This document shows, one piece after another, positions 11,128 through 27,828 of a DNA stretch of 64,000 nt. Made by a program: the position numbers and the translations under genes. The notes under the pieces were generated by a model. The model saw only the letters and a program-made list of their open reading frames with translations, was not told the origin of the DNA and did not search any database. This stretch comes from Bifidobacterium mellis (GTDB taxonomy: Bacteria > Actinomycetota > Actinomycetes > Actinomycetales > Bifidobacteriaceae): assembly GCF_000967265.1 (NCBI RefSeq), contig NZ_KQ033885.1, forward strand, positions 471,552 to 535,551, read 5' to 3'. Position 1 is the stretch's first letter, and every line of letters starts with the position of its first letter.

Positions 11128-11451
11128 TCAGGCATCCAGGTTGGACTGGGTGCCGGCCTGGGCTCCGGCGCTGGCCTGCTCCTGCTGGGCTGCATCAAGC
11201 TTGGCCCGCACCTGGCCCAGCAGCTCCTGGGCACGCTTGGCCAGGGCTTCGCCGATCTCCCACTGACGCATGGAGGCATCCAGATCCAGGCCGCCGGCCT
11301 CCAGCGCCTGAACCGCCTGGATCAGCTGGTCCCGGGCCTGCTCATAGGGCAGTTTGGCGATGGTCTCGCGTTCCTTCTGGCTCAGGGCCGAAGCCAGTAC
11401 CGGCTCTTCCTTGCCCTGCCCCTTGGTCTGCTCCTCGTCGGTGTCGCTCAT
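11128..11451 (-). CDS. xseB: Exodeoxyribonuclease VII small subunit
   Basis: The accessory subunit of exonuclease VII, which degrades single-stranded DNA from both ends in the cytoplasm. It is 107 residues from the ATG at 11451, preceded by GAGGAG; an upstream in-frame ATG at 11496 lacks a good site. The core KLPYEQARDQLIQAVQALEA and GLDLDASMRQWEIGEALAKR matches the XseB helical hairpin. A short acidic N-terminal extension and an Ala/Gln-rich tail are lineage additions. It follows xseA by about 107 bases on the same strand. Confidence 0.93.
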   Translation of the reverse strand: MSDTDEEQTKGQGKEEPVLASALSQKERETIAKLPYEQARDQLIQAVQALEAGGLDLDASMRQWEIGEALAKRAQELLGQVRAKLDAAQQEQASAGAQAGTQSNLDA

Positions 11452-11557
11452 GCCTGCTCCTCTTCCTGTCTGATTCTTATCTGGTGCATTATCCAAATCC
11501 CTGATGACGCGGATGGTTATCGCGGACGATTATATGTGGCCGACCACGTGGAATGGG

Positions 11558-12868
11558 TCACTGCCCGCTGACGACCCTGGTCTCGATCCGACCTTCTTTG
11601 ACGGTCAGGGTCAGATCCTGATCGGTCTGGACCTGCTGGGGACTGACGACCACCTTCCCGTCCAGGGTCTGCACGACTGCGTATCCGCGGTCCAGCGTGG
11701 ACTGGGGAGAGAGGGCGGTCAGCGAGGACTGGAGCTTCTCCACGGTCAGGGAGGCGTCGTCCACGATCCGCCGAAGGGCGATGTCCAGGCGAACCAGGGA
11801 CTCATCGACCAGCCGCTGGGGCTTGTCCAGCATGGTCTGCGGCTTGGTCAGGCTGGGGCGGTTGGCGTATCCCTCGATCAGCCGTGTCTCGCCTTCGACC
11901 ATATTCTCGATGCGCGCGTTTATGCGCATCCGGGCCTCCTGGATGATGCCCTCCTGCTCGACCAGGTCGGGCACCACCCGCTTGGCTGCGTCGGTGGGGG
12001 TTGAGGCGCGCAGATCCGCCGCCAGATCGATAAGGGTCCAGTCGTCCTCGTGGCCGATGGCCGAGACGATGGGGGTGACGCAGGCTGCCGTGGCCCGGAC
12101 CACGGACTCGTCCGAGAAGCCCAGCAGGTCCTCGAAGCTGCCGCCGCCCCTGGCCACGATGATCACATCCACAGCCGGATCAGCATCCAGCTTCTGGATG
12201 GCTTCGACCACCTCGGGCGGGCACTGGGGGCCCTGAACGTGGGCGTGCACCACGGAGAATTCGATGGTGGGCCAGCGCAGACGGGCGTTGGTGATCACAT
12301 CCCCCTCGGCCCTGGCCTTGGGCGCGCAGATCAGGCCGATGCGCCGGGGGAATTCGGGGAGGGGAACCTTGTTTTCCGCATCGAAGAGGCCCTCGCCCTT
12401 GAGCTTGCGCCTGAGCTGGTCGATCTGCTCCTTGAGGTCGCCGGTGCCTACACGTTTGATCCGGTCGGCCATGAAGCTCAGACGGGTCTGTTTGATCCAC
12501 AGGTCGGGCCGCCCGTGCACCACCACACGGTCGCCCTGGCGGAATTCCCTGGCCTGGGTGGCGAAGGCACGGAAGCCCATGACGTTGATGGAGATGTCCT
12601 CGAAGTTGTCGCGCAGGGTCAGATAGGCGGAACCGGTCCGGCGGGTATTGATCTCCACGATCTGACCCTCCACCCAGGCTCCGGGCCAGCGGGCCACTGC
12701 GTCGTGGTACTTCTGGCTGAGCACGCTGACCGGCCAGGGATCTTCCTCGGTGGTATCTCGTGCCAGGCGGGGCAGTTGATCCAAGGGTTTGGGGGTCGGT
12801 CCCGACGAGGCTGGGCCAGCCGGCGCACCCATCGACCCGCGCATGTTCGAACCCATGTATGCTCGCAC
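11558..12868 (-). CDS. xseA: Exodeoxyribonuclease VII large subunit
   Basis: The catalytic subunit of exonuclease VII, about 436 residues. The start is set at GTG 12868 because AGGAGG lies six bases upstream; longer in-frame extensions to 13063 have no ribosome binding site. The order is an OB-fold tRNA_anti-like domain (WPGAWVEGQIVEINTRRTGSAYLTLRD), then the catalytic domain with GLICAPKARAEGDVITNARLRWP, VVHAHVQGPQCPPEVVEAI, VIIVARGGGSFEDLLGFSDE and PIVSAIGHEDDWTLIDLAADLRASTPT. The coiled-coil C-terminus ends with LDRGYAVVQ. With xseB it forms a DNA repair operon. Confidence 0.95.
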   Translation of the reverse strand: MRAYMGSNMRGSMGAPAGPASSGPTPKPLDQLPRLARDTTEEDPWPVSVLSQKYHDAVARWPGAWVEGQIVEINTRRTGSAYLTLRDNFEDISINVMGFRAFATQAREFRQGDRVVVHGRPDLWIKQTRLSFMADRIKRVGTGDLKEQIDQLRRKLKGEGLFDAENKVPLPEFPRRIGLICAPKARAEGDVITNARLRWPTIEFSVVHAHVQGPQCPPEVVEAIQKLDADPAVDVIIVARGGGSFEDLLGFSDESVVRATAACVTPIVSAIGHEDDWTLIDLAADLRASTPTDAAKRVVPDLVEQEGIIQEARMRINARIENMVEGETRLIEGYANRPSLTKPQTMLDKPQRLVDESLVRLDIALRRIVDDASLTVEKLQSSLTALSPQSTLDRGYAVVQTLDGKVVVSPQQVQTDQDLTLTVKEGRIETRVVSGQ

Positions 12869-13340
12869 CTGATGCCTCCTGACCATCGGTTCCGCCAGTC
12901 TGACCAACCTATCTGGCAACGGCCTGTACAGGACGGTATGCGGGTTGGTCAGCGAAGGAAACGTCCTCTCAGGGTCTCTCAATACGGGGACAATTCCATG
13001 TCCTCTGCCGGTCTGCTGCAGGCCCTCTGCTGGTTGTTCTTGGGCCGATTTCGCCGAGGGCACAGTGGCATTTCTCCCGTTTGCAAGGAGTCTGGGACTG
13101 AGGTCAAAGTGTGAAAGAGAAGGGTTGGAACAATGCCTTGATGCAACTGCCCTCGTCTGCGGCTTGCCTGCAGCAGAGGCGGTTTTCCCGGCGGCTGTGT
13201 CAAAGGAGACAGTCTTGTTTCCCTCATATCGCGGAAGTTATTCATGCTCTGGCGGTAGCATAAATAAAGTAAGCCGGATATGATGTGGTGTCTGCTTTTC
13301 GAGCCCATCATGCGGCGGTCTCACGGATTGAGGTTGTTTC
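12869..13340. other. Intergenic region between divergent xseA and the giant activase gene
   Basis: About 470 bases with no convincing gene. It must hold the xseA promoter and the promoter of the gene at 13341. A TATGAT at 13279-13284 is a possible -10 for the rightward gene, without a good -35. GAGG about 9 bases before ATG 13341 is a weak ribosome binding site. Confidence 0.4.
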
Positions 13341-16300
13341 ATGTCTGATGGCGTCGACATAGCGGGTCGATATAAGGGCACAGGACCGCGGGATCTCCTG
13401 CGTGTGGGTTTGGACATCGGTTCCACCACAGTCAAGGCCGTGGTTCTTGGCACAGGGGATAGATTGGATCAGGCGCTTTTCAGCGACTACCGCCGTCACC
13501 ACGCCAATGTGCGGCAGTGCGTGGCGGAGCTGGTCACGGATATCAAGCTTTCCCTGTCACGGGTTGGCCTGGCCGGCAATCCCATCAGCCTGGTGATCAC
13601 CGGCTCGGGCGGGTTGGAACTGGCCAGCCAGCTTCAGGCCGAGTTCGCCCAGGAGGTCATTGCCGAGACCGAGGCCATCAACGCCACCTATCCCGAGGGG
13701 GACGTGATCATCGAGCTGGGCGGCGAGGATGCCAAGATCACCTATCTGAAGCCCACCCCGGAGCAGCGGATGAACGGATCCTGCGCAGGCGGGACCGGAG
13801 CCTTCATCGATCAGATGGCCACCCTGCTCAATACCGATGCTTCCGGCCTGAACGATATGGCTTCCAAATACAAGACCATTTATCCCATCGCCTCGCGCTG
13901 TGGGGTCTTCGCCAAGTCAGACCTGCAGCCTCTGATCAACGACGGAGCCGCCAAGGAGGATCTGGCTGCATCCATCTTCAACGCCGTGGCCACGCAGACC
14001 ATCTCCGGTCTGGCCTGCGGACGTCCCATCCGCGGCAACGTGATCTTTTTGGGCGGGCCCCTCTTCTTTATGAGCGAGTTGAGGGAAGCCTTCAAGCGGA
14101 TCCTTCAGAACAGGGTCAGCCGCTACATCATTCCCGAGAACGCGCACCTCTATGTGGCCTATGGCGCTGCCATCATGGCTGGTCGTCAGGAGCAGGACGA
14201 CCAGGATAATGCAGCGCAGGTCAAGACCGACTATTCGCCGGAGACCGATGTGAACGACCCCTTCGGCCCGGCTTGGGGGCTGGACCAGATGGAGGTCGAC
14301 AAGGCGCGGTCCGAAAAGGCATCGAGCCTGGACAAGATGGCTCTGCAGGATGCCATGCAGGACGGCCGCACCACTACCTTGGTGGACGGTGAGAACAAGG
14401 TTCCTGCGAGCGAAACCGCCAAGGATGCCAGCCAAAATCAAGCAATGAACTTTGATCTGACTTCGCTGGATGGGGTCCTCTCCGCCCTGAAGGGTCTGGA
14501 GAACATGCCCTCCACGGCCAGAACGATCCGCCCGCTCTTCCTGAACGAGGAGGAGTGCAGGGAGTTCAACGACCGTCATGGGGCCCAGGTCATCCCCACC
14601 GGGGACCTGTCCGGAGCAAAGGGGCCGCACTTCCTGGGCATCGATGCGGGCAGCACCACCATCAAGGCCGTGCTGATCAACGACGACAAGACCATCGTCT
14701 GGTCCACCTACGGGGTGCATAAGGACAGCCCGCTGATCGCCGCCGCCAACATCGTCAAGGAGGTCAGGAAGTCCCTGCCGGAGGGGGCCTACATCGCCCG
14801 TGCCTGCGCTACCGGCTATGGTGAGGGCCTGGTCAAGGCCGGCCTGCATGTCGACGAGGGCGTGGTCGAGACCATGGCCCACTACCGGGCAGCCGAGGAG
14901 ATCAGCCCCGGGGTCACCTCGGTCATCGACATCGGCGGGCAGGACATGAAGTACATCGCCGTCAACGACGGGGTCATTGATTCCATCTGCGTCAACGAGG
15001 CCTGCTCGGCCGGCTGCGGGTCCTTCCTGCAGACCTTCGCCCAGTCCATGGGCATCAGCATCCAGGAGTTCACCAAGCAGGCGTTGGCTTCCGAGGCCCC
15101 GACCGATCTGGGCTCCCGCTGTACGGTCTTCATGAACTCCTCGGTCAAGCAGGCTCAGAAGGAGGGCGCTTCCCCGGAGGACATCGCCGCCGGGCTCTGC
15201 TACTCGGTGGTCAGGAACGCCCTCTACAAGGTCATCAAGCTGCGTGACGCCAACGCCCTGGGGCCGGTGGTCGTGGTCCAGGGAGGCACCTTCCTCAACG
15301 ATGCCGTCCTGCGGGCCTTCGAGCTCCTGACCGGTCGCCAGGTGACCAGGCCCAACATCGCCGGACTCATGGGAGCCTACGGCGCCGCGCTGACGGCCCG
15401 CATGCACTGCCCGCAGAATGAAGAGGTCGAGGATTTGGCTGCGGCTAGTTCCCACGTGGTCGACGGGGAGAAGTCCGTGGCCAGCACGCCTACCACCCCC
15501 AATAGGGCGCCGGCTTCCACCAAGACGAAGTTGTCGCCAGCCGCCGTCAACAAGATTGCCTCCAAGAACGACCAGGGGTTCAAGGCGACCCTGCCCGAAC
15601 TGAAGGTGGAGAACGGCCATGTGGTCAGCTCCATCCTGGCGGGGGACGATCTGGACAACCTGTCCATGACCACCACCCACGATGTCTGCAAGCTCTGCCA
15701 GAACCACTGCAAGCTGACCATCACTGAATTCGAGGACGGCGGCCGCTACGTGACCGGGAATCGCTGCGAGCGTGGCGGCGACAAGAACAGGAAGCGCTCC
15801 GACCGCCCCAACCTCTACGACTTCAAGTACAAGCGGGCCTTTGCCTACCGTCGCCTGACCCCGGACAAGGCCACCAGGGGTGATATCGGCATCCCCCGTG
15901 TGCTCAACATGTACGAGGACTACCCCTTCTGGTTCACCCTGCTGACTTCACTGGGCTTCCGTGTCATGATATCCGGGCGTTCCAACCATGAGCTCTTCGA
16001 GAGCGGGATGGAGTCCATCGCCTCCGAGAACATCTGCTACCCGGCCAAGCTGGTCCACGGGCACATTCACTCCCTGGTCGACAAAGGCATCAAGACCATT
16101 TTCTACCCCTGCGTCACATACGAGCAGGAGCTGGTTCCCGATACGGACAACCACTACAACTGCCCCATCGTGGCCAACTACCCGGTGGTGATCGAGGCCA
16201 ACATGGCCGAGCTCAAGGAGAACGGCGTCCGCTTCATGCGGCCCTACTTCAACCTGTCCAACAAGGAGAAGATGGTCGAGCGGATCGTCAAGGTCTTCGA

Positions 16301-18815
16301 CTGGGCCAAGGTGAACGAGGAGGAGGCCCGGACGGCCGTCCAGGAGGCCTATCGTGAGGATGCCCGGTTCAAGGAGGACGTCCGCCAGGAGGGACTTCGC
16401 GCCCTGGCCTACATGCAGGAGTACGGGGTCAAGGGCGTGGTCCTGTCGGGACGCCCCTACCATGTGGATCCCGAGGTCAACCACGGCATTCCCGAGACCA
16501 TCTGCTCCCTGGGCATGGCCGTGCTTTCAGAGGATTCGATCTGCGAGCTGGACGTGCATAAACTGCCCAAGCTGAGCGACTATATCATTCCGGCGGCGGG
16601 GGAGCGGGCCCTGGCCTCCAACAACCCCACGGCCGCCAAGTTCCGCAAGACCGTGCCGAGTTTCGGCGACGACCATCAGAAGATGCCCTTGAGGGTGACC
16701 GACCAGTGGGCCTACCACTCCAGGCTCTACTCGGCAGCCAGGTTCGTCTCCGAGTATCCCGACCTGCAGCTGGTCCAGCTGGTCAGTTTCGGATGCGGCG
16801 TGGACGCCATCACCACCGACCAGGTCCAGGAGATCCTCGCCGATAAGGGCGATGTCTACACGCAGCTGAAGATCGACGAGGTCTCCAACCTGGGTGCGGC
16901 CAAGATCCGTCTGCGCTCGCTGAAGGCCGCCATGGACGAACGCCATCAGCGGGATCTGGCCCAGGAGGACAGCGAAGACCGGAAGGAAGCGCCCGTTATG
17001 GAACAGGCGCCTGCTAAGGTCGCGGTCAAGGAAGTTGGTTCATCGCCTGACCTGGTTCGGGTGGAGGATTCGTCTGATTCTCAGAATTCTCAGAATTCTC
17101 AAGACCTTGCAAGCCATATTGAAGCAGTGGAAGCGGATGCGCCTGACCAGCCGAAATCCGATGGGTTCCGGTCCACCAACGCGCAGAAGATCAACTTGTC
17201 CCAGCGCAAGGCCGACATCGTGGCTCTGGCCCGGTTCGTGGCCCTGCACGACAAAAGCGATCAGGGTCTGATAGGCCTTCACCCCATGGGCATCAGGCCC
17301 ATCCGGGAGACCATGGCATCGCGGCAGAAGGAAGCCGAAAGCAAGTCGGCAGAGCGCCCGGCCGGACAGGTCAAGGATGTCCAGGCCAACAGAGCCGCCG
17401 CCAAGCCGACCCTGTCCAAGTACGCCACTGAACATCGCTTCACCAAGGAGATGGGACACAAATTCACGGTGGTGGCACCGCAGATGTCCCCCGTGCACTT
17501 CTCCCTCCTGGAGGCGGTCTTCTCGAGCGCCGACTACCACTTCGAGCTCCTGAAGCATGCCACGCCCGAAGACATCAACACCGGGGTCAAGTACGTCAAC
17601 AACGATGCCTGCTTCCCGGCCATCATCGTGGTGGGGCAGCTGGTCAACGCCTTCCTGTCCGGCAGGTTCGACCCGCATAAGTGTGCGGTCATCGTCACCC
17701 AGACCGGCGGCATGTGCAGGGCCACCAACTACTATGGCCTTCTGCGCAAGGCCATGGCTGATGCCGGCTATGGCTACGTCCCCATCATCACCCTGAGCGT
17801 TCAAGGATTCCGGGCCAATCCCGGCCTTCAGGTAACTCCGGCTCTGCTGCACCGCGCCGTCAAGGCCTTCTACCTGGGCGACGCCATGATCGAGTGCCTG
17901 CTCAGGGTCCGCCCCTACGAGCAGGAGCCCGGCTCAGCCAACAAGCTCTACAAGCTCTGGGACACGATCTGCAAGGAGACCATCGAGCACCACGGGTACT
18001 CCAAGACCGCCAAGAAGGTCTATGGCCATGGCTATCTGCCCTATGGCACGCTGATGAAGCGGATGATTCGGGCCTTCGACCAGCTGCCTCTGCGCAATAT
18101 CCCCCGCAAGCCACGGGTGGGCGTAGTCGGGGAGATCCTGGTCAAGTACCATCCCGATGCCAACAACCACGTGGTCGACCTGATCGAAAGCCAGGGCTGC
18201 GAAGCCGTGCTCCCCGGCGTCTGCGACTTCATGGTCAACGGCATCTCCAACGCTGAATGGAACGAGGAGATGCTGGGCACCGGCGGCCAGGTGGGTGTCA
18301 AGAAGATCGTCCTCAAGGCTGCGGATGTCTACCGTGCCCCCATGATCGCCGGCTTCAAGGCCTCCCATGGAAAGTTCGACATTCCCGCCCACATCAGCGA
18401 TCTGAGGGAGAAGGCCGCATCGGTCACCTCCCTGGGTGTTCAGGCCGGAGAGGGTTGGCTCCTGACCGGTGAGATCATCGAACTGATCCAGTCCGGCGCG
18501 CCCAACATCGTCTGCGCACAGCCCTTCGCCTGCCTGCCCAACCACGTGACCGGGCGTGGCATGTTCGGCAAGATCCGCAGGACCTACCCCGAGGCCAACA
18601 TCGTCTCGATCGACTACGATCCCGGCGCCTCTGAGGCCAACCAGCTCAACAGGATCAAGCTGATGATCGCCGCTGCCAAGAAGCCGGGCGACCAGCAAAA
18701 GCTCAGCCAGGACCACAAGGCGGCCCTTGAATCCCAGCCTGTGGAATCGGCCGGCCTGGATGCTGGGCAGGCAGCACCTGTCCAGGACGGGGAGAAGGTT
18801 CTGGAGAGCCTGTAG
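13341..18815 (+). CDS. Giant 2-hydroxyacyl-CoA dehydratase activase-like fusion protein
   Basis: 1824 residues. The N-terminus is a BcrAD/BadFG-type ASKHA ATPase (VGLDIGSTTVKAVVL near 28, VIIELGGEDAKITYL, GSCAGGTGAF). A second complete ASKHA copy follows from about 430 (LGIDAGSTTIKAVLI, VIDIGGQDMKYIAV, NEACSAGCGSFLQTF). Near 783 a Cys cluster CKLCQNHCKL then GNRCERGG suggests an Fe-S site. A DUF2229-like region follows, then a charged linker (about 1210-1310), then a dehydratase-like region with NDACFPAIIVVGQL, TQTGGMCRATNYYG and CAQPFACLPNHV. Activases of this family use ATP to drive an electron into a radical dehydratase. Here activase and dehydratase-like parts are fused, and no CoA-transferase or acyl-CoA gene is adjacent. 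The true reaction is unknown. Confidence 0.8.
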   Translation: MSDGVDIAGRYKGTGPRDLLRVGLDIGSTTVKAVVLGTGDRLDQALFSDYRRHHANVRQCVAELVTDIKLSLSRVGLAGNPISLVITGSGGLELASQLQAEFAQEVIAETEAINATYPEGDVIIELGGEDAKITYLKPTPEQRMNGSCAGGTGAFIDQMATLLNTDASGLNDMASKYKTIYPIASRCGVFAKSDLQPLINDGAAKEDLAASIFNAVATQTISGLACGRPIRGNVIFLGGPLFFMSELREAFKRILQNRVSRYIIPENAHLYVAYGAAIMAGRQEQDDQDNAAQVKTDYSPETDVNDPFGPAWGLDQMEVDKARSEKASSLDKMALQDAMQDGRTTTLVDGENKVPASETAKDASQNQAMNFDLTSLDGVLSALKGLENMPSTARTIRPLFLNEEECREFNDRHGAQVIPTGDLSGAKGPHFLGIDAGSTTIKAVLINDDKTIVWSTYGVHKDSPLIAAANIVKEVRKSLPEGAYIARACATGYGEGLVKAGLHVDEGVVETMAHYRAAEEISPGVTSVIDIGGQDMKYIAVNDGVIDSICVNEACSAGCGSFLQTFAQSMGISIQEFTKQALASEAPTDLGSRCTVFMNSSVKQAQKEGASPEDIAAGLCYSVVRNALYKVIKLRDANALGPVVVVQGGTFLNDAVLRAFELLTGRQVTRPNIAGLMGAYGAALTARMHCPQNEEVEDLAAASSHVVDGEKSVASTPTTPNRAPASTKTKLSPAAVNKIASKNDQGFKATLPELKVENGHVVSSILAGDDLDNLSMTTTHDVCKLCQNHCKLTITEFEDGGRYVTGNRCERGGDKNRKRSDRPNLYDFKYKRAFAYRRLTPDKATRGDIGIPRVLNMYEDYPFWFTLLTSLGFRVMISGRSNHELFESGMESIASENICYPAKLVHGHIHSLVDKGIKTIFYPCVTYEQELVPDTDNHYNCPIVANYPVVIEANMAELKENGVRFMRPYFNLSNKEKMVERIVKVFDWAKVNEEEARTAVQEAYREDARFKEDVRQEGLRALAYMQEYGVKGVVLSGRPYHVDPEVNHGIPETICSLGMAVLSEDSICELDVHKLPKLSDYIIPAAGERALASNNPTAAKFRKTVPSFGDDHQKMPLRVTDQWAYHSRLYSAARFVSEYPDLQLVQLVSFGCGVDAITTDQVQEILADKGDVYTQLKIDEVSNLGAAKIRLRSLKAAMDERHQRDLAQEDSEDRKEAPVMEQAPAKVAVKEVGSSPDLVRVEDSSDSQNSQNSQDLASHIEAVEADAPDQPKSDGFRSTNAQKINLSQRKADIVALARFVALHDKSDQGLIGLHPMGIRPIRETMASRQKEAESKSAERPAGQVKDVQANRAAAKPTLSKYATEHRFTKEMGHKFTVVAPQMSPVHFSLLEAVFSSADYHFELLKHATPEDINTGVKYVNNDACFPAIIVVGQLVNAFLSGRFDPHKCAVIVTQTGGMCRATNYYGLLRKAMADAGYGYVPIITLSVQGFRANPGLQVTPALLHRAVKAFYLGDAMIECLLRVRPYEQEPGSANKLYKLWDTICKETIEHHGYSKTAKKVYGHGYLPYGTLMKRMIRAFDQLPLRNIPRKPRVGVVGEILVKYHPDANNHVVDLIESQGCEAVLPGVCDFMVNGISNAEWNEEMLGTGGQVGVKKIVLKAADVYRAPMIAGFKASHGKFDIPAHISDLREKAASVTSLGVQAGEGWLLTGEIIELIQSGAPNIVCAQPFACLPNHVTGRGMFGKIRRTYPEANIVSIDYDPGASEANQLNRIKLMIAAAKKPGDQQKLSQDHKAALESQPVESAGLDAGQAAPVQDGEKVLESL
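17077..17103 (+). repeat. 9-bp tandem repeat inside the activase linker
   Basis: ATTCTCAGA is repeated at 17077-17085 and 17086-17094, with a diverged third copy at 17095-17103. It encodes repeated Ser-Gln-Asn triplets in the interdomain linker. A 9-bp unit keeps frame, so copy change would only alter linker length. Confidence 0.7.
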
Positions 18816-19625: not shown

Positions 19626-20243
19626 TCAGCGGTACCCATCCCAGAGCGGCAGAGGGAAAAGCAAGTCTTTGAACAGCTTCCATTCCTGGACATAGTCGAT
19701 TTTCGGCTCCCGCAGCAGTCGTATTTGTATGCCGTCCATGACTTCCACGCTCATCCTGACGCTGTCTTGCATATCTCTGGACCAATCCATGCCGTCGGGG
19801 AGCGCCCAGGGGAACTTGGAATAATGCTTCCACACTTCTTCTGGTCTGTGGAGAAAATAGTCATGCAAGGGATGGTTGGTGGAGATGGCCTCGGTTTCCA
19901 GGACCGTATATAGCTGCGTGAGTTCAGGCTGGCTGGCATTGTGGGCGACCAGATAGTCAAAATAGGCCGGAAGATGAGGATGGTTCGGGTCGGATCCGGG
20001 TAGGCCAGTCTGCAAGAATTCCTCCGGGGTGCCATAGACGTCATAGATGTCGGTGATCAAGAGGGAGAGCAGTCCTTCCTTGCTGCCTACGTAATGGAGA
20101 ACGCCCGGTTGAGACATGTCCACCATATCGGCAACGTCCTTGAGCGATATACCGTTGTATCCGTGTCTGCTGATGAGGTGGGCGGCGGCCTGTGTGATTT
20201 CCGCCCGTCTCACCTCTGGTGATTTTCTGGTTCGGCTCGCCAT
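19626..20243 (-). CDS. TetR-family transcriptional regulator
   Basis: 205 residues. The N-terminal helix-turn-helix is clear (AEITQAAAHLISRHGYNGISLKDVADMVDMSQPGVLHYVGSKEGLL). The rest is a variable ligand-binding helical domain with no recognisable ligand signature. The gene diverges from the MFS-GH30-GH42-GH3 operon. A palindrome over that operon's -10 (20463-20482) is a strong candidate operator, so it probably represses the operon until a sugar or glycoside binds. The 3' end converges with the acetyltransferase gene over a 71-base gap without a clear terminator. Confidence 0.9.
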   Translation of the reverse strand: MASRTRKSPEVRRAEITQAAAHLISRHGYNGISLKDVADMVDMSQPGVLHYVGSKEGLLSLLITDIYDVYGTPEEFLQTGLPGSDPNHPHLPAYFDYLVAHNASQPELTQLYTVLETEAISTNHPLHDYFLHRPEEVWKHYSKFPWALPDGMDWSRDMQDSVRMSVEVMDGIQIRLLREPKIDYVQEWKLFKDLLFPLPLWDGYR

Positions 20244-20482: not shown

Positions 20483-20554
20483 TGGTTGGTAGATATGGCT
20501 GTCTGCCGGCATTGGACGTGTCAGAGAAGACTAAGTAATAGAGAGGTCGACACC

Positions 20555-21889
20555 ATGAGCGACTCAGCTGCCCCGGGGTTGGGGGATTCTGAACTTCTGC
20601 AGGCGCATAAGGCAGCCTTGGCTGCTGCCGACAAGAACCCCATGCTCTCGCCTGAAACTGGCAAGCCAGTCCCGAAAAAGACCCTGTTCAGGTTTGGCGC
20701 GAGCTTCCTGGCCTTCGGCATTCTGTGGATGTCGGGCCTGGGCATCGTCAGCATCGTGCTGCTTCCCGAGCATCTCAAGCAGGTTCCAGGCATCGCTCCC
20801 GAGGCGCTGATGGGCATAGTCAATGCCTGTACGGCCGTAGCTTCGTTGGTCTCCAACCTGCTCTTCGGAAACTTTTCTGATCGCAGCCGCTCCCGGTACG
20901 GGCGTCGGACCCCATGGGTCCTGGGGGGTGCAGTCCTGGGCGGCGTAACCCTCTTTCTGACCGGCATGACCACCAACCCGGTCCTGCTGACCATCGTCTA
21001 TTGTCTCTGCATGTTCGGTCTGAACTGCATGATCGCCCCCATGGTGGCCATCCTGTCCGACCGCGTGCCTTCCGGTGTGCGCGGAACACTGTCCGCCTTC
21101 TATGGAGCAGGCTCTACCATCGGTTCGCCCATCGGCTCCCTGATCGGCGCGGCCCTGGTGACCCATATGTTCACTGGCTTCGTCCTCGCTGGCTTACTCA
21201 TGTTCCTGGGTGGCGTCGTGGCCATTCTGATCATGCCCAGGGAGGGCTCGGCTGCTTACCTGCCCAAGGACGAGGGCACCCTCATGGATGTGCTCAAGTC
21301 TTTCCAGCCTCCGCGCTTCCATGGGGGCCACGACTTCTATAAGGCCTTCGTCGGAAGGCTCTGCATGCTGTTGAGCTATCAGATGATCTCCGCATATCAG
21401 CTCTACATCATCGAAAAGTATGTGGGCCAAACCGTAACCCAGGCAGCCGCAACCATTTCGGTCATGTCCGTCATCACCATGGTGGTTTCCCTGCTGGGTT
21501 CTTTGGTCTCGGGGCCCGTTTCCGACCTGATCGGGCGGCGCAAGGTGCCGGTGGTCATCGCCTCCGTCCTCTTTGCCATTGGTATCGCCATGCCCTGGAT
21601 CAGTCCCACGGTCATGGGCATGTATCTGTACGCCGGCATTGCCGGGTTCGGCTATGGAGTCTATTCGTCCGTCGACCAGGCGCTCAATGTCGATGTCCTG
21701 CCCAGCAAGGAGGAAGCCGGCAAGGATCTGGGCATCCTCAACCTGGCCACCACGCTGGGGCAGATGGCCGGCCCTCTGGTCATGTCCTTCATCACTCTGA
21801 ACTGGGGTTATGCGGCGGCCTTCCCCACGGCCATCGCCTTCGCCCTGCTCGGATGTGTCTTTATCCTGATGATCAGAAACGTCAAGTAA
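20555..21889 (+). CDS. MFS sugar transporter
   Basis: 444 residues. ATG 20555 follows GAGAGGT at 20541-20547. About twelve membrane segments are visible, with the MFS loop 2-3 signature NFSDRSRSRYGRRTPWVLGG and the loop 8-9 counterpart GPVSDLIGRRKVPVV. The 30-residue N-terminal cytoplasmic extension is hydrophilic. It is the first gene of the operon with three glycosidases, so it probably imports a beta-linked di- or oligosaccharide or glycoside by proton symport. A separate efflux role cannot be excluded from sequence. Confidence 0.88.
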   Translation: MSDSAAPGLGDSELLQAHKAALAAADKNPMLSPETGKPVPKKTLFRFGASFLAFGILWMSGLGIVSIVLLPEHLKQVPGIAPEALMGIVNACTAVASLVSNLLFGNFSDRSRSRYGRRTPWVLGGAVLGGVTLFLTGMTTNPVLLTIVYCLCMFGLNCMIAPMVAILSDRVPSGVRGTLSAFYGAGSTIGSPIGSLIGAALVTHMFTGFVLAGLLMFLGGVVAILIMPREGSAAYLPKDEGTLMDVLKSFQPPRFHGGHDFYKAFVGRLCMLLSYQMISAYQLYIIEKYVGQTVTQAAATISVMSVITMVVSLLGSLVSGPVSDLIGRRKVPVVIASVLFAIGIAMPWISPTVMGMYLYAGIAGFGYGVYSSVDQALNVDVLPSKEEAGKDLGILNLATTLGQMAGPLVMSFITLNWGYAAAFPTAIAFALLGCVFILMIRNVK

Positions 21890-21940
21890 CCCCGGCCTCT
21901 CCGGGTATGCAGAAAAACTATGCAAAGGAGCAGAAGATTC

Positions 21941-23296
21941 ATGAATAAGAAGGCAGAACCGATCTGGGTTGCAACCACTCGGCAGCAGGCCATGCAGGAG
22001 CAGCACTTGGCTGCCTCCGCCATGGAGACGTCAGCTGATCTGGAATGTACCGGTGTCAAAAAGCAGACTCTGCGAGGGTTTGGCGGCTGCTTCAATGAGT
22101 TGGGGTGGCTGCCCTTGCAAGAGCTGGGGGAGGAGAAACGTGAGGGGATCATCCGTGAGCTCTTCAGCCCGGACGAGCTGAATCTGACCTTCAACAGGAC
22201 TCCGGTGGGTGCCAATGACTTCGCTGCAAGTTGGTACAGCTACGACGAAACCGACGGTGACTATGACCTGGAGCATTTCAGCGTCGATCACGACGAGCAG
22301 ACCCTGATTCCGTATATCCGCCAGGCCCAGAAGTATCAGCCGAACATGGGACTGTTCGCCAGCCCATGGAGTCCGCCCACCTGGATGAAACGGCCCAAGG
22401 TCTACAATTTCGGGCGAATCGACATGAGCGAGCGCAATCTCACTGCATATGCCCGCTACCTACTGCGGTATGTGCGCGAATATGACCGCCGTGGTATCCA
22501 CATCGACCAGCTGCATGTGCAGAACGAGGTCTTTGCGGACCAGAAATTCCCCTCCTGCCTCTGGTCCAGCGAGGACATGCGCATCTTCATCCGGGACTAT
22601 CTGGGTCCCCTCTTCGCCAAGGAGGCGCCGGACACGGCCATCTTCCTGGGGACGCTGAATGGTCCCGAGGATATGAAATTCGGTCCCGAAGGCATGATCC
22701 TCGAGAACTACAACCGGTACGTGGACAACATCCTCTTTGACGAGGACTGCCGCAGGTACATCGCCGGCATCGGCTACCAGTGGGCCGGCCAGCATGACAT
22801 TGAGCGCACCCACCAGTCCTGGCCTGAGATTGAGCTGGAGCAGACCGAGTCCGAATGCGGCATGGGCGGCAACAGCTGGGAGTACGCCGAATACGTCTTC
22901 TCGCTGGTCAACAGGTATCTCCGGGCCGGAGCCACCTGCTACACCTACTGGAACATGGTCCTGGGCCAGGGCATATCCACCTGGGGATGGCGGCAGAACT
23001 CCCTCTTCTCCATCGACACCAGCACCGGCCAGGTCAGGCGGAACCCCGAGTACTACGTCATGCGCCACTACTCGCACTATGTGCGCCCGGGCGCTCGCCT
23101 GCTGGATACTCGCGGCCATTTCAGCTCCATGGCCACAGCCTTCGAAAACCCGGATGGGTCGATCGTCGTCGTTGCCCAGAACGCCCTGGACCGCGCCATG
23201 CCCTTCTCCTTCTGCGGGCCGGGAGGGGACGACGAGGGGAGCCAAGGTTTCCAAGTGACCCTGGAGCCACGATCCTTCAACACCTTCGTCCTATGA
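21941..23296 (+). CDS. Cytoplasmic GH30 glycoside hydrolase (glucosylceramidase-like)
   Basis: 451 residues from ATG 21941, with AAAGGAG at 21924-21930. There is no signal peptide, so it acts in the cytoplasm. GH30 landmarks are LRGFGGCFNELGW near residue 45, FASPWSPPTWMK, the acid/base Glu196 in HVQNE and the nucleophile Glu303 in EQTESE. The C-terminus forms the family's beta-sandwich (SSMATAFENPDGSIVVVAQN). Related enzymes are retaining beta-glucosidases, beta-xylosidases or exo-beta-1,6-glycanases; which applies is not decidable. It lies between the MFS transporter and GH42, implying it trims imported beta-glycosides. Confidence 0.88.
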   Translation: MNKKAEPIWVATTRQQAMQEQHLAASAMETSADLECTGVKKQTLRGFGGCFNELGWLPLQELGEEKREGIIRELFSPDELNLTFNRTPVGANDFAASWYSYDETDGDYDLEHFSVDHDEQTLIPYIRQAQKYQPNMGLFASPWSPPTWMKRPKVYNFGRIDMSERNLTAYARYLLRYVREYDRRGIHIDQLHVQNEVFADQKFPSCLWSSEDMRIFIRDYLGPLFAKEAPDTAIFLGTLNGPEDMKFGPEGMILENYNRYVDNILFDEDCRRYIAGIGYQWAGQHDIERTHQSWPEIELEQTESECGMGGNSWEYAEYVFSLVNRYLRAGATCYTYWNMVLGQGISTWGWRQNSLFSIDTSTGQVRRNPEYYVMRHYSHYVRPGARLLDTRGHFSSMATAFENPDGSIVVVAQNALDRAMPFSFCGPGGDDEGSQGFQVTLEPRSFNTFVL

Positions 23297-23329
23297 ATTG
23301 AGTCCCGTAGATTAAGATTGGAGTTCATC

Positions 23330-25444
23330 ATGTCAGACAACGCAGTCCGAACCAAGGACCACTCAGCTTCGTCAGGCGGCACGCGTCTGCCGGACAGGCT
23401 CATCTTCGGATGTGCCTACTACGACGAATACATGCCCTATGAGCGGGTGGACAAGGACATGTCCATGATGAAGTCCGCCGGCATCACCACCATTCGTATC
23501 GCCGAATCCACCTGGAGCACCCTGGAGCCCCAGCCGGGCGTATTCGACTTCAGCCATGTGGACCGGGTGCTGGATGCTGCTGGACGCTTCGGCATCCAGG
23601 TCATCGTGGGCACGCCCACCTATGCCGTGCCCTCCTGGCTGGTCGCCATGCACCCGGATGTTCTGGCGGATACCCCCAAGGGCCACAACCGGTATGGCGC
23701 CCGCCAGATCATGGACATTGTCAACCCTTCCTACCGGTACTATGGCGAGCGCGTCATCCGCAGGCTGATGAGCCATGTGGCGGACAACCCCCAGGTGATC
23801 GGCTACCAGGTCGACAACGAGACCAAGTACTACGACTGCGTATCGCCCGACATGCAGCGGCTCTTCGTCAAGGATCTGCGACGGCGCTTTGATGACGATT
23901 TGGACCGTCTCAATGCGGCCTTTGGCCTGGATTACTGGTCAAATAGGATCGACTCCTGGGAAGATTTTCCCGATCTTACCGGGACCATCAACGCGTCCCT
24001 GGGGTCGGCCTTCGACCGCTTCCGCCGCAGCCAGGTCAGCCGCTACCTGGCCTGGCAGGCTGGCATCGTGCGCGAATATGCCCGCGACGACCAGTTCGTC
24101 ACCCACAACTTCGATTTCGACTGGGGTCCGGGCTGGTCATACGGCGTCCAGCCAGCTGTCGATCACTTCGAGGCGGCCGAATGCCTGGACGTGGCCGGTG
24201 TGGACATCTACCACCCCACCGAGGATGACCTGACCGGCAAGGAGATCGCCTTCGGCGGGGATATGACCCGCAGCCTGAAAGGTGGCGCCAACTATCTGGT
24301 TCTGGAAACCGAGGCCCAGGGGCAGAACGGTTGGTTGCCTTACCCGGGCCAGCTGCGGCTGCAGGCATACAGCCATCTGGCCTCGGGGGCTGACGGGGTC
24401 ATGTACTGGCACTGGCATTCCATCCACAACTCCTTCGAGACCTACTGGAAGGGGCTGCTTTCACAGGATATGGAACCCAACCCCACCTATGAGGAGGCCG
24501 GCCGGTTCGGCAGGCAGATAGCGCAGAAGGGTGTGGGGGAGCGTCTGATCAACCTCCGAAAGCGCAACAAGGTCGCCATCATGGTGGGCAACGACTCCCT
24601 GACCGCTCTGGACTGGTTCTCCCTGGAGACCGGCTTCCCCCGTCAGCAGGGGCAGATCTCCTACAACGATGTGGTCAGACGGGTCTACGATGCCCTCTTC
24701 GAGCTCAACATCGAGTGCGATTTCATCAGCGACAAGGCTGACCGGTCCCAGCTGGGCCGCTATGCCATGGTCCTGGCTCCTGCCCTCTACAGCACCAATG
24801 AGGATACGCTGAAGGCCCTGGCCGACTATGTCCATCAGGGAGGTCACCTGGTGGCCACGCTGCGCTCCTTTGTGGCGGACGAGAACCTCAAGGTCTGGCA
24901 TGACAAGGCTCCGCACCTGCTGACCGACGTGTTCGGCATCGACTACAACCAGTTCACCCGTCCCGGCAAGGGGCTCACCCTGGATCTACATGGGTCCGAC
25001 CAGGCCGGACCGACCTGCCAGGGGCTGATTGAGTTGCTGAATCCGCGAACCGGAACCCAGGTCCTAGCCTCCTATGACCATCCGGTCTGGGGGCGGTATG
25101 CATCTGTGACCCGTCATGATTACGGCCACGGCAGTGCGGAGTGGATCGGCACCCTGCCCTCGGCCCAGGGCATGCGGATGCTGCTTTCGGATGCAGCGGA
25201 TGCGGCTGGCCTGGGCGGCCCCGCCCGGGACCTGGCTGGTGTGGTCACCGTGCGGGAGGGCATCAATGCCCTGGGGGAGCAGGTCGCTTACCTGCTCAAT
25301 TATTCATCCAAGGAGGTCAGGCTGGACGCACCCTATGGGGGGCATCTGCTGGTGGCCGACGGGCAGGCTGATCCTCAGGCTCATGTCGACCAGGGCCAAT
25401 CAATGACCATCGGACCCTGGGACCTGGCGATCATCGTTCGATAG
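23330..25444 (+). CDS. GH42 beta-galactosidase
   Basis: 704 residues. ATG 23330 follows GGAG at 23320-23323; the TTG four codons upstream overlaps that site. The (beta/alpha)8 barrel starts with RLIFGCAYYDEYMPYERVDKD. The acid/base is Glu164 in GYQVDNET and the nucleophile is probably Glu326 in LETEAQG. The trimerisation domain (VVRRVYDALFELNIECDFI) and the small C-terminal beta-domain are present, giving the usual family length. It has no signal peptide. Bifidobacterial GH42 enzymes prefer beta-1,3/1,4/1,6-galacto-oligosaccharides over lactose, which fits a galactan-degrading neighbourhood. Confidence 0.95.
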   Translation: MSDNAVRTKDHSASSGGTRLPDRLIFGCAYYDEYMPYERVDKDMSMMKSAGITTIRIAESTWSTLEPQPGVFDFSHVDRVLDAAGRFGIQVIVGTPTYAVPSWLVAMHPDVLADTPKGHNRYGARQIMDIVNPSYRYYGERVIRRLMSHVADNPQVIGYQVDNETKYYDCVSPDMQRLFVKDLRRRFDDDLDRLNAAFGLDYWSNRIDSWEDFPDLTGTINASLGSAFDRFRRSQVSRYLAWQAGIVREYARDDQFVTHNFDFDWGPGWSYGVQPAVDHFEAAECLDVAGVDIYHPTEDDLTGKEIAFGGDMTRSLKGGANYLVLETEAQGQNGWLPYPGQLRLQAYSHLASGADGVMYWHWHSIHNSFETYWKGLLSQDMEPNPTYEEAGRFGRQIAQKGVGERLINLRKRNKVAIMVGNDSLTALDWFSLETGFPRQQGQISYNDVVRRVYDALFELNIECDFISDKADRSQLGRYAMVLAPALYSTNEDTLKALADYVHQGGHLVATLRSFVADENLKVWHDKAPHLLTDVFGIDYNQFTRPGKGLTLDLHGSDQAGPTCQGLIELLNPRTGTQVLASYDHPVWGRYASVTRHDYGHGSAEWIGTLPSAQGMRMLLSDAADAAGLGGPARDLAGVVTVREGINALGEQVAYLLNYSSKEVRLDAPYGGHLLVADGQADPQAHVDQGQSMTIGPWDLAIIVR

Positions 25445-25527
25445 ACCGGCTTCAGTCTGATCGGCTTCAGACTGACCGGACGCAAATATGAGTGGATGAG
25501 TGCTCAGTAAGAAAGGAAGGTGCCCAG

Positions 25528-27828
25528 ATGGCATCAAGAAAGTTGACGGAGGACCTACCCTACCGCAATCCCGACCTAAGCGTGGATGAGCGAGTGGCTG
25601 ACCTGGTGGGCCGGATGACCCGTGAGGAGAAGGTGGGCCAGATGATGCAGCTTGATGCCCGCTCGGGAGTGGACAAGGAGGTGGTGGACCAGCATGCTGG
25701 ATCCCTGCTGCATGTCTCTCCGCAGAACATGATCAAGGCTGACAAGGCCGTTCATCGCACCCGTCTGGGCATTCCTCTGCTGATCGGCGATGACTGCATC
25801 CACGGCCATTCCTTCTTCCGCGGGGCCACCATTTTTCCCGAGCAGTTGGGCATGGCGGCTTCCTTCGACCCTGAACTGGTTCAGCGGATGGGGCGGGCCA
25901 CAGCCCAGGAGGTCGCCACAACAGGCGTCCACTGGACCTTCTCCCCGGTGCTCTGCATCGCCAGGGACACCCGCTGGGGCCGGGTGGATGAGACCTTCGG
26001 CGAGGACCCCTTCCTGATCGGCGAAATGGCCTCGGCCATGGTGCGCGGCTACCAGGGCGGATCAGCCATGACCGGGACCTTGCCCAAGGATGCTGTGCTG
26101 GCCACGGCCAAGCACTTCGCTGGCTATTCCGAGACCCAGGGCGGGCGCGATGCCTCCGAGGCCGACCTCTCGCACCGCAAGCTGCTCTCCTGGTTCCTGC
26201 CGCCCTTCGAGCGCCTGGCCAAGGAGGGTGTGGCCACCTTCATGCTGGGCTACGAGTCCATCGACGGGGTACCTGTCACCATCAACAACTGGCTGCTCAA
26301 CGACGTGCTTCGAGGGGAATGGGGTTACCAGGGCACCCTGATCACCGACTGGGACAACGTGGGCCGGATGGTCTGGGAGCAGAAGGTGCAGCCCGACTAC
26401 ACCAGGGCATCCGCAGCCGCCGTCAAGGCCGGCAACGACCTGATCATGACCACGCCCGGCTTCTACCAGGGGGCCTTGGATGCACTGGATGCCGGGCTGC
26501 TGCGTGAGGAGGACCTCGACCGGGCGGTCAAGCACATCCTGGCCCTGAAATTCCGCATGGGGCTCTTCGAGGATCCGCGTCTGCCCGACCCAGAGGCCCA
26601 GAAGGCGGTCATCAACTCCCCGGAGCACCAGGGGCTCAACCTCCAGGTAGCCCAGGAGTCGGTGGTCCTTTTGAAAAACGATGGCATCCTGCCCCTGTTC
26701 GGCGGGGTCGATGCCGATGGCCGCCCCGGTGATGACTCAGCGCACAGCATCGCCCTGGTCGGTCCGCTGATCGACGATGCCCAGAACCAGTTGGGGGACT
26801 GGGCCGGTGGTTCGGGTCAGTGCGACTGGATCAAGGACCAGCCTCGGGAGATGATCTCGACCGTGGCCGACGGTCTGCGCCAGGAGCTGCCTGAAAACTG
26901 GCGGCTCGACTGCGAGCAGGGCGTCGACGTGCTCCGTCTGGTCGACGACCCGGCGGGCAAGCTCTTCCCCGATGGCCAGCCCAGGCCCAAGGTGGCGGCC
27001 CCGGCCAGGATCGATCAGGACCGCTTCGACAGGGCAGTGGACCTGGCCAGGCAAAGCGACCTGGTGGTTGCCGTGGTCGGCGACGTGGTCCAGCTGGTGG
27101 GCGAGGGCCGTTCGACTGCCACCCTGGAGCTCTACGGTCCTCAGCGCGATCTGCTGGATGCCCTGGCGCAGACGGGCAAGCCCATGGTCATCGTGCTCAT
27201 GTCCTCCAAGCCGCTGATCCTGCCTCCGTCCGCACAGTCTGCCAGGGCTCTGATCTGGCAGCCCGACCCAGGCATGCAGGGCGGCCGTGCCCTGGCCGGG
27301 ATTCTCACCGGCAAGGTTGAGCCCACAGGCAGGCTGCCCATCACCTTCCCCAGGCATGCCGGGCAGCTGCCGGTCTACTACAACCAGATCCGGGGCCAGC
27401 ATGGTGACCGCTATGCCGATCTGACCCAGGATCCGGCCTTCGCTTTCGGTCAGGGTATGGGCTACACCACCTTTGCCTACGGAAAGCCCCAGGTCGATGG
27501 ACCGGATACCGTCGGACCCGAGGACACGGTCAGGATGACCGTAGACCTGACCAACACCGGCCAGCGGCCAGGCACTGAGGTGGTCCAGGTCTATATCAGC
27601 GACCTGGTGACCTCCGTCAGCTGGGCTGACCGCGAACTCAAGGCCTTCCAAAGGGTTCAGCTGGATCCAGAGCAGACCCGGAAGGTGGTTTTCGATCTTC
27701 CGGTGGCCGAGTGGGCCCTGGTTGATGCCGACTGCAATCGCAGGGTCGAGCCCGGTCAATTCCAGGTGCTGGTGGGGTCCTCTTCGCGCAGGGAAGACCT
27801 GCAGGCTGTGACAGTGACCGTGGGCTGA
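25528..27828 (+). CDS. GH3 beta-glucosidase
   Basis: 766 residues. ATG 25528 follows AAGGAAGG. The N-terminal barrel contains PLLIGDDCIHGHSFFRGATIFPEQLGMAA and AKHFAGYSETQGGRDASEADLS, and the nucleophile Asp274 lies in LITDWDNV. The C-terminal alpha/beta sandwich (ESVVLLKNDGILPLFG) and a fibronectin-III-like domain (RMTVDLTNTGQRPGTEVVQVYISD) complete a full-length, BglX-like enzyme. It has no signal peptide, so it works inside the cell on imported beta-glucosides. It is the last gene of the MFS-GH30-GH42 operon; no terminator hairpin is evident in the 40 bases that follow. Confidence 0.95.
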   Translation: MASRKLTEDLPYRNPDLSVDERVADLVGRMTREEKVGQMMQLDARSGVDKEVVDQHAGSLLHVSPQNMIKADKAVHRTRLGIPLLIGDDCIHGHSFFRGATIFPEQLGMAASFDPELVQRMGRATAQEVATTGVHWTFSPVLCIARDTRWGRVDETFGEDPFLIGEMASAMVRGYQGGSAMTGTLPKDAVLATAKHFAGYSETQGGRDASEADLSHRKLLSWFLPPFERLAKEGVATFMLGYESIDGVPVTINNWLLNDVLRGEWGYQGTLITDWDNVGRMVWEQKVQPDYTRASAAAVKAGNDLIMTTPGFYQGALDALDAGLLREEDLDRAVKHILALKFRMGLFEDPRLPDPEAQKAVINSPEHQGLNLQVAQESVVLLKNDGILPLFGGVDADGRPGDDSAHSIALVGPLIDDAQNQLGDWAGGSGQCDWIKDQPREMISTVADGLRQELPENWRLDCEQGVDVLRLVDDPAGKLFPDGQPRPKVAAPARIDQDRFDRAVDLARQSDLVVAVVGDVVQLVGEGRSTATLELYGPQRDLLDALAQTGKPMVIVLMSSKPLILPPSAQSARALIWQPDPGMQGGRALAGILTGKVEPTGRLPITFPRHAGQLPVYYNQIRGQHGDRYADLTQDPAFAFGQGMGYTTFAYGKPQVDGPDTVGPEDTVRMTVDLTNTGQRPGTEVVQVYISDLVTSVSWADRELKAFQRVQLDPEQTRKVVFDLPVAEWALVDADCNRRVEPGQFQVLVGSSSRREDLQAVTVTVG

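Follow-up and report, generated by a model that had tools for sequence, protein, structure and literature searches.

Plasmalogen synthase is encoded by a split plsA-plsR pair in Clostridium perfringens and by a single gene in Enterococcus faecalis, L. cremoris and Bifidobacterium longum subsp. suis, where plsA spans 4,920 bp (PMC12838417, 2025). As described in that report, each of the four systems yields plasmalogens in Escherichia coli BL21 and the empty vector yields none, the E. faecalis and C. perfringens enzymes give plasmalogens by HPLC only without oxygen, and AlphaFold3 models of the synthases comprise Act1, Act2, Red1 and Red2. The role given to PlsA/PlsR is consistent in PMC10076029 and PMC10191378, and Goldfine's review records pls genes for Bifidobacteriales and a route in which the sn-1 acyl chain is reduced directly (PMC9702350). 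Gene presence is no guarantee of plasmalogen. Enterococcus includes plasmalogen producers, and Carnobacterium maltaromaticum and L. cremoris JCM16167 are listed as having a plsA homolog and no plasmalogen (Table 1 of PMC12838417). Among bifidobacteria, plasmalogens are reported in B. longum and not in B. animalis (PMC6965078); a 2012 paper conflicts with this, its title placing them in B. animalis subsp. lactis. A literature search joining plasmalogen with Bifidobacterium asteroides was empty and we came across no lipid data on the B. asteroides clade, nor did a literature search return a paper joining 2-hydroxyglutaryl-CoA dehydratase activase with Bifidobacterium.

The window considered here is a 64,000-nucleotide stretch of Bifidobacterium mellis DNA. 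On its forward strand, positions 13341-18815 hold an intact open reading frame of 1824 aa, running from ATG to stop with no internal stops. Judged from its sequence, the gene is very probably bifidobacterial PlsA, a fused PlsA-PlsR in which an Act1-Act2 pair would serve Red1/Red2 in forming the plasmalogen vinyl ether. It almost certainly encodes the known enzyme by which anaerobic bacteria convert common membrane lipids to plasmalogens, and is thus an ordinary bifidobacterial gene. The initial annotation had proposed an undescribed system of unknown substrate and pathway, a proposal overtaken by published work: the B. longum subsp. suis gene converts diacyl phospholipid to plasmalogen in E. 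coli (PMC12838417), and pls genes are recorded in Bifidobacteriales (PMC9702350). The features of the gene are as follows.

13341..18815, forward strand: plsA-type gene, probable fused PlsA-PlsR plasmalogen synthase, 1824 aa (from architecture, relatives and tree; function by homology, PMC12838417)
13398..14192, forward strand: Act1, the first BcrAD/BadFG (acyl-CoA dehydratase activase) ATPase domain, with C148 and C187 (profile match, alignment)
14193..14621, forward strand: variable linker between Act1 and Act2, 143 aa here and 55-143 aa in 25 relatives (length comparison)
14622..15416, forward strand: Act2, the second activase ATPase domain, with C555 and C594 (profile match, alignment)
15633..16949, forward strand: Red1, the first reductase/dehydratase region, with DUF2229 (15885-16541) and invariant C899, C941 and C1152 (Pfam, alignment)
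15687..15767, forward strand: CxxCxxxC and a fourth cysteine, C783, C786, C790 and C809, unchanged across all 26 rows (alignment)
16950..17453, forward strand: variable linker between Red1 and Red2, 168 aa here and 18-202 aa in 25 relatives; the gene boundary of split loci (length comparison, split loci)
17454..18695, forward strand: Red2, the PlsR-equivalent C-terminal region, with invariant C1424, C1459, C1725 and C1731 (alignment, split loci)

The protein carries the hallmarks of PlsA: two BcrAD/BadFG domains followed by DUF2229/Red1 and then Red2, together with conserved Fe-S cysteines and ATP motifs (26 of 26 rows; 16 of 16 bifidobacterial rows). Pfam matched BcrAD_BadFG in two stretches (whole-protein E 1.7e-58) and DUF2229 at residues 849-1067 (E 1.1e-84), and NCBIfam likewise called acyl-CoA dehydratase activase in two stretches. 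Two ATPase copies in one 1824-residue chain, as initially annotated, are borne out, since each copy alone exceeds the curated PF01869 cut-off (84.2 bits at 13404-14180; 128.2 bits at 14634-15398), and at E <= 0.001 PF01869 matches nothing else in the 2.13-Mb genome. Act1 (residues about 20-284) and Act2 (428-692) align with each other at an hhalign probability of 99.7 (E 6.4e-27) and are, by this alignment, an internal duplication. Length differences among the 25 relatives measured fall mostly in three linkers, and domain lengths are steady.

The description of the C-terminal part as dehydratase-like is weak by sequence: of the domains named at the outset, BcrAD_BadFG and DUF2229 were matched and HGD-D was not (E <= 1). 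Among the 26 members of the Red-region alignment, 10 matched HGD-D weakly at E <= 0.1, the best at 6.5e-6. Red1 and Red2 share a single short match near the CYPA motif (53 columns, probability 67). A remote homology search of both regions against solved structures gave no relevant match, and neither matched an HgdB/YjiM-like profile, a weak negative because that profile has three rows.

Sixteen cysteines are invariant in all 26 aligned rows, including C148 and C187 in Act1 and C555, C559 and C594 in Act2. Solved relatives found by sequence are the activases of 2-hydroxyglutaryl-CoA and 2-hydroxyisocaproyl-CoA dehydratases, the putative activase 7yyl, and MbdP/MbdQ of 3-methylbenzoyl-CoA reductase. 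In Act2, the counterparts of C555 and C594 are cysteines conserved in the HgdC activator (1hux) and in MbdQ; in the HgdC dimer, the HgdC cysteines carry the [4Fe-4S] cluster that both subunits share. Loss of ATPase or Fe-S residues in homologues would have spoken against a working enzyme; on the contrary, ATP-site motifs and cysteines are retained in all 16 bifidobacterial rows, with two cluster cysteines in both Act1 and Act2. A frameshift or pseudogene was also looked for, and the frame is open, with full-length copies 95-96% identical over residues 1-1824 in the nearest named genomes, B. asteroides and B. apousia. With no point found in its favour and this conservation against it, a degenerate or chimeric gene without function is scarcely credible.

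On the preferred reading as PlsA, Act1 and Act2 would form an ATP-driven activase pair inside one chain, with a [4Fe-4S] cluster held between them. Low-potential electrons would pass from this pair to Red1/Red2, whose substrates would be intact diacyl phospholipids; reduction of their sn-1 acyl ester and elimination of water would then leave the 1-alkenyl (vinyl) ether of plasmalogen. We infer the cluster arrangement, the electron path and the same product for the B. asteroides-clade enzyme. The earlier suggestion that the internal ATPase pair acts as an intramolecular dimer feeding the fused region is plausible, given the duplication, the kept motifs and the published Act1/Act2/Red1/Red2 architecture (PMC12838417). 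The CxxCxxxC cluster first noticed in the sequence is present as C783, C786 and C790, with C809 behind it. These four cysteines may bind a further [4Fe-4S] cluster, a relay placed between that of the Act1-Act2 pair and those of the Red regions, a tentative idea to which we give somewhat less than even weight and which we did not meet in the literature consulted. If it were true, a single chain would house an ATP-gated electron wire, complete from the activase to a membrane-lipid active site.

Relatives of the gene are widespread. Identity of the 1824-aa protein to the five other Bifidobacteriaceae rows of the alignment is 64-66% for four of them and 55% for the remaining one. DUF2229 was matched in 112 of the 151 Bifidobacteriaceae genomes searched and was without a match in 39. 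The family gene occurs once in each of the 112; four genomes with two DUF2229 matches hold a single open reading frame matched twice or contig-end fragments. With one gene per matched genome, we expect the B. longum gene to be the ortholog of the 1824-aa reading frame. In a phylum sample, DUF2229 was found in 136 of 396 genomes, often in short separate proteins. A scan of a contig collection gave at least 587 candidate stretches, relatives being encoded by at least 575. Of these loci the best 80 were kept, and they come from Bacillota, Actinomycetota and Spirochaetota, with a few rows from other phyla. The large structure alignments used 25 of the best 80 loci, and the domain alignments 16.

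A tree was built from 56 rows: 31 hand-chosen loci of the best 80, three plasmid-collection loci, Listeria, eight actinobacterial rows, 12 rows labelled as paralogues, and the window gene. Rows were called paralogues ahead of tree building, chiefly for their weaker DUF2229 scores. L064 was removed from this set, its match straddling two overlapping reading frames, and L043, L045-L047, L049, L051, L052 and L055 were omitted as near-duplicates in kind. The tree comes from a quick search, has SH-aLRT as its sole support measure, and had long branches flagged, as was unusual letter make-up in 16 rows. The clade that contains the window gene has 44 rows and an SH-aLRT support of 100; among them are bifidobacterial, Enterococcus, Listeria and Clostridium rows and six split plsA/plsR-type rows, these six forming one side of a branch (support 99). 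All 12 pre-labelled paralogue rows lie outside that clade (support 100). The gene clusters with genes from producer genera (Enterococcus, Listeria, Clostridium), the validated PlsA sequences being outside the tree's row set. Orthology to validated PlsA is accordingly drawn from single-copy status, the tree and the published description, and not from direct comparison with the B. longum and C. perfringens sequences.

Where the gene is split, the boundary lies between Red1 and Red2, as seen by reading frame in nine of the best 80 loci and also in Fusobacterium animalis (L076). In F. animalis, the activase gene encodes 975 aa; the next gene, one base downstream, encodes 404 aa and is annotated as 2-hydroxyacyl-CoA dehydratase.

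Other large activase fusions were seen outside the plsA-type clade. Five phylum-sample loci (L059, L060, L069, L070, L071) encode a second large fused activase-DUF2229 protein in a clade of its own outside PlsA. L061-L063 and L065-L068 form three more deep clades of large activase fusions from Actinomycetota, far from PlsA, and the idea of an undescribed system would suit these better than the window gene.

The glycerol ester reductase Ger, a PlsA homolog (PMC11150832, PMC8788747), has like chemistry and carries reduction of the sn-1 (or sn-2) ester to completion, so that its product is a saturated alkyl ether. According to a 2026 report, PlsA and Ger are at present inseparable by sequence, and two activation domains, the number found in the 1824-aa protein, are tied to Ger (PMC13274423). 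However, Act1 matches PF01869 at E <= 0.001 in all 17 clade members scanned, including E. raffinosus from a producer genus, so that domain count does not single out Ger; the scan suggests that the PF01869 count does not separate PlsA from Ger within the clade. Since the B. longum subsp. suis gene yields vinyl ethers in E. coli (PMC12838417), we judge a vinyl ether to be a far likelier product than a saturated one, and identity with Ger improbable.

The neighbours of the 1824-aa reading frame are genes for exonuclease VII subunits, an acetyltransferase, a TetR regulator, a sugar transporter and GH30, GH42 and GH3 glycosidases. As initially noted, no acyl-CoA or amino-acid fermentation gene was found among the neighbours examined. 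This is no puzzle for a plasmalogen synthase, because its substrate is membrane phospholipid. It bears on another reading, an undescribed dehydratase for CoA esters or amino-acid-derived substrates, or a ring reductase, of the benzoyl-CoA reductase / 2-hydroxyacyl-CoA dehydratase family. The 1824-aa protein shares activase domains with both of those systems, but the window gene falls inside the plsA-type clade, apart from the 12 paralogue rows, no pathway gene was seen among the neighbours examined, and a function has been assigned to the B. longum subsp. suis member (PMC12838417); we regard this reading as highly improbable.

Gene-neighbourhood comparison, also suggested at the outset, was run. 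The genes xseA/xseB (11128-13063) lie divergent beside plsA in the window. They are divergent beside plsA in seven of the 16 bifidobacterial and near loci compared, and on the same strand in an eighth. An operon reading was rejected, since we know of no lipid link for xseA/xseB; a functional link is not evident either. The sugar transporter gene and the following GH30, GH42 and GH3 genes (20486-27828) lie on one strand and look like a carbohydrate-use cluster.

A TetR gene (19626-20243, reverse strand) lies near plsA, behind the acetyltransferase gene, and matches TetR_N only. Beside the E. raffinosus ortholog, a divergent TetR gene (TetR_N, TetR_C_8) is the nearest upstream reading frame of at least 150 aa, an arrangement that matches E. 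faecalis, where the TetR gene EF1326 is directly upstream of pls EF1327 (PMC9702350). The window regulator differs from the TetR_C_8 type found in E. raffinosus. In Collinsella aerofaciens, a strict anaerobe, a TetR_C_8-type regulator is located directly upstream of plsA (L077:3256-3966). This stands in contrast to the review's statement that a TetR regulator beside pls is absent in strict anaerobes (PMC9702350).

If the gene is read as plsA, a large protein of the B. asteroides clade that bears a generic annotation gains a role in membrane ether-lipid synthesis, and plasmalogens are to be expected in that clade. Its members are bee-gut bacteria.

The protein can be set against several known systems. 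The 2-hydroxyacyl-CoA dehydratases (HgdAB/HadBC) carry the HGD-D domain that went undetected here. The activases HgdC/HadI and MbdP/MbdQ also belong to the BcrAD/BadFG family and their cluster cysteines align with those of Act2; they differ in being small stand-alone chains, of 243-276 residues among the solved entries, unfused to the reductase and working for CoA-ester enzymes. Ger of Thermotoga maritima and Desulfatibacillum alkenivorans, compared by description, is a PlsA homolog that acts on glycerol esters and makes saturated alkyl ethers, unlike the vinyl ethers of PlsA. PlsA and PlsR of C. perfringens (CPE1194-CPE1195; Jackson et al. 2021) have, by description, the same total domain content, distributed over two genes there and held in one fused chain here. 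The PlsA of B. longum subsp. suis, again compared by description (PMC12838417), differs in length, with 4,920 bp (1639 residues if the stop is counted) against 1824 residues, and is likewise a single gene with the order Act1-Act2-Red1-Red2, from the same genus in the NCBI sense.
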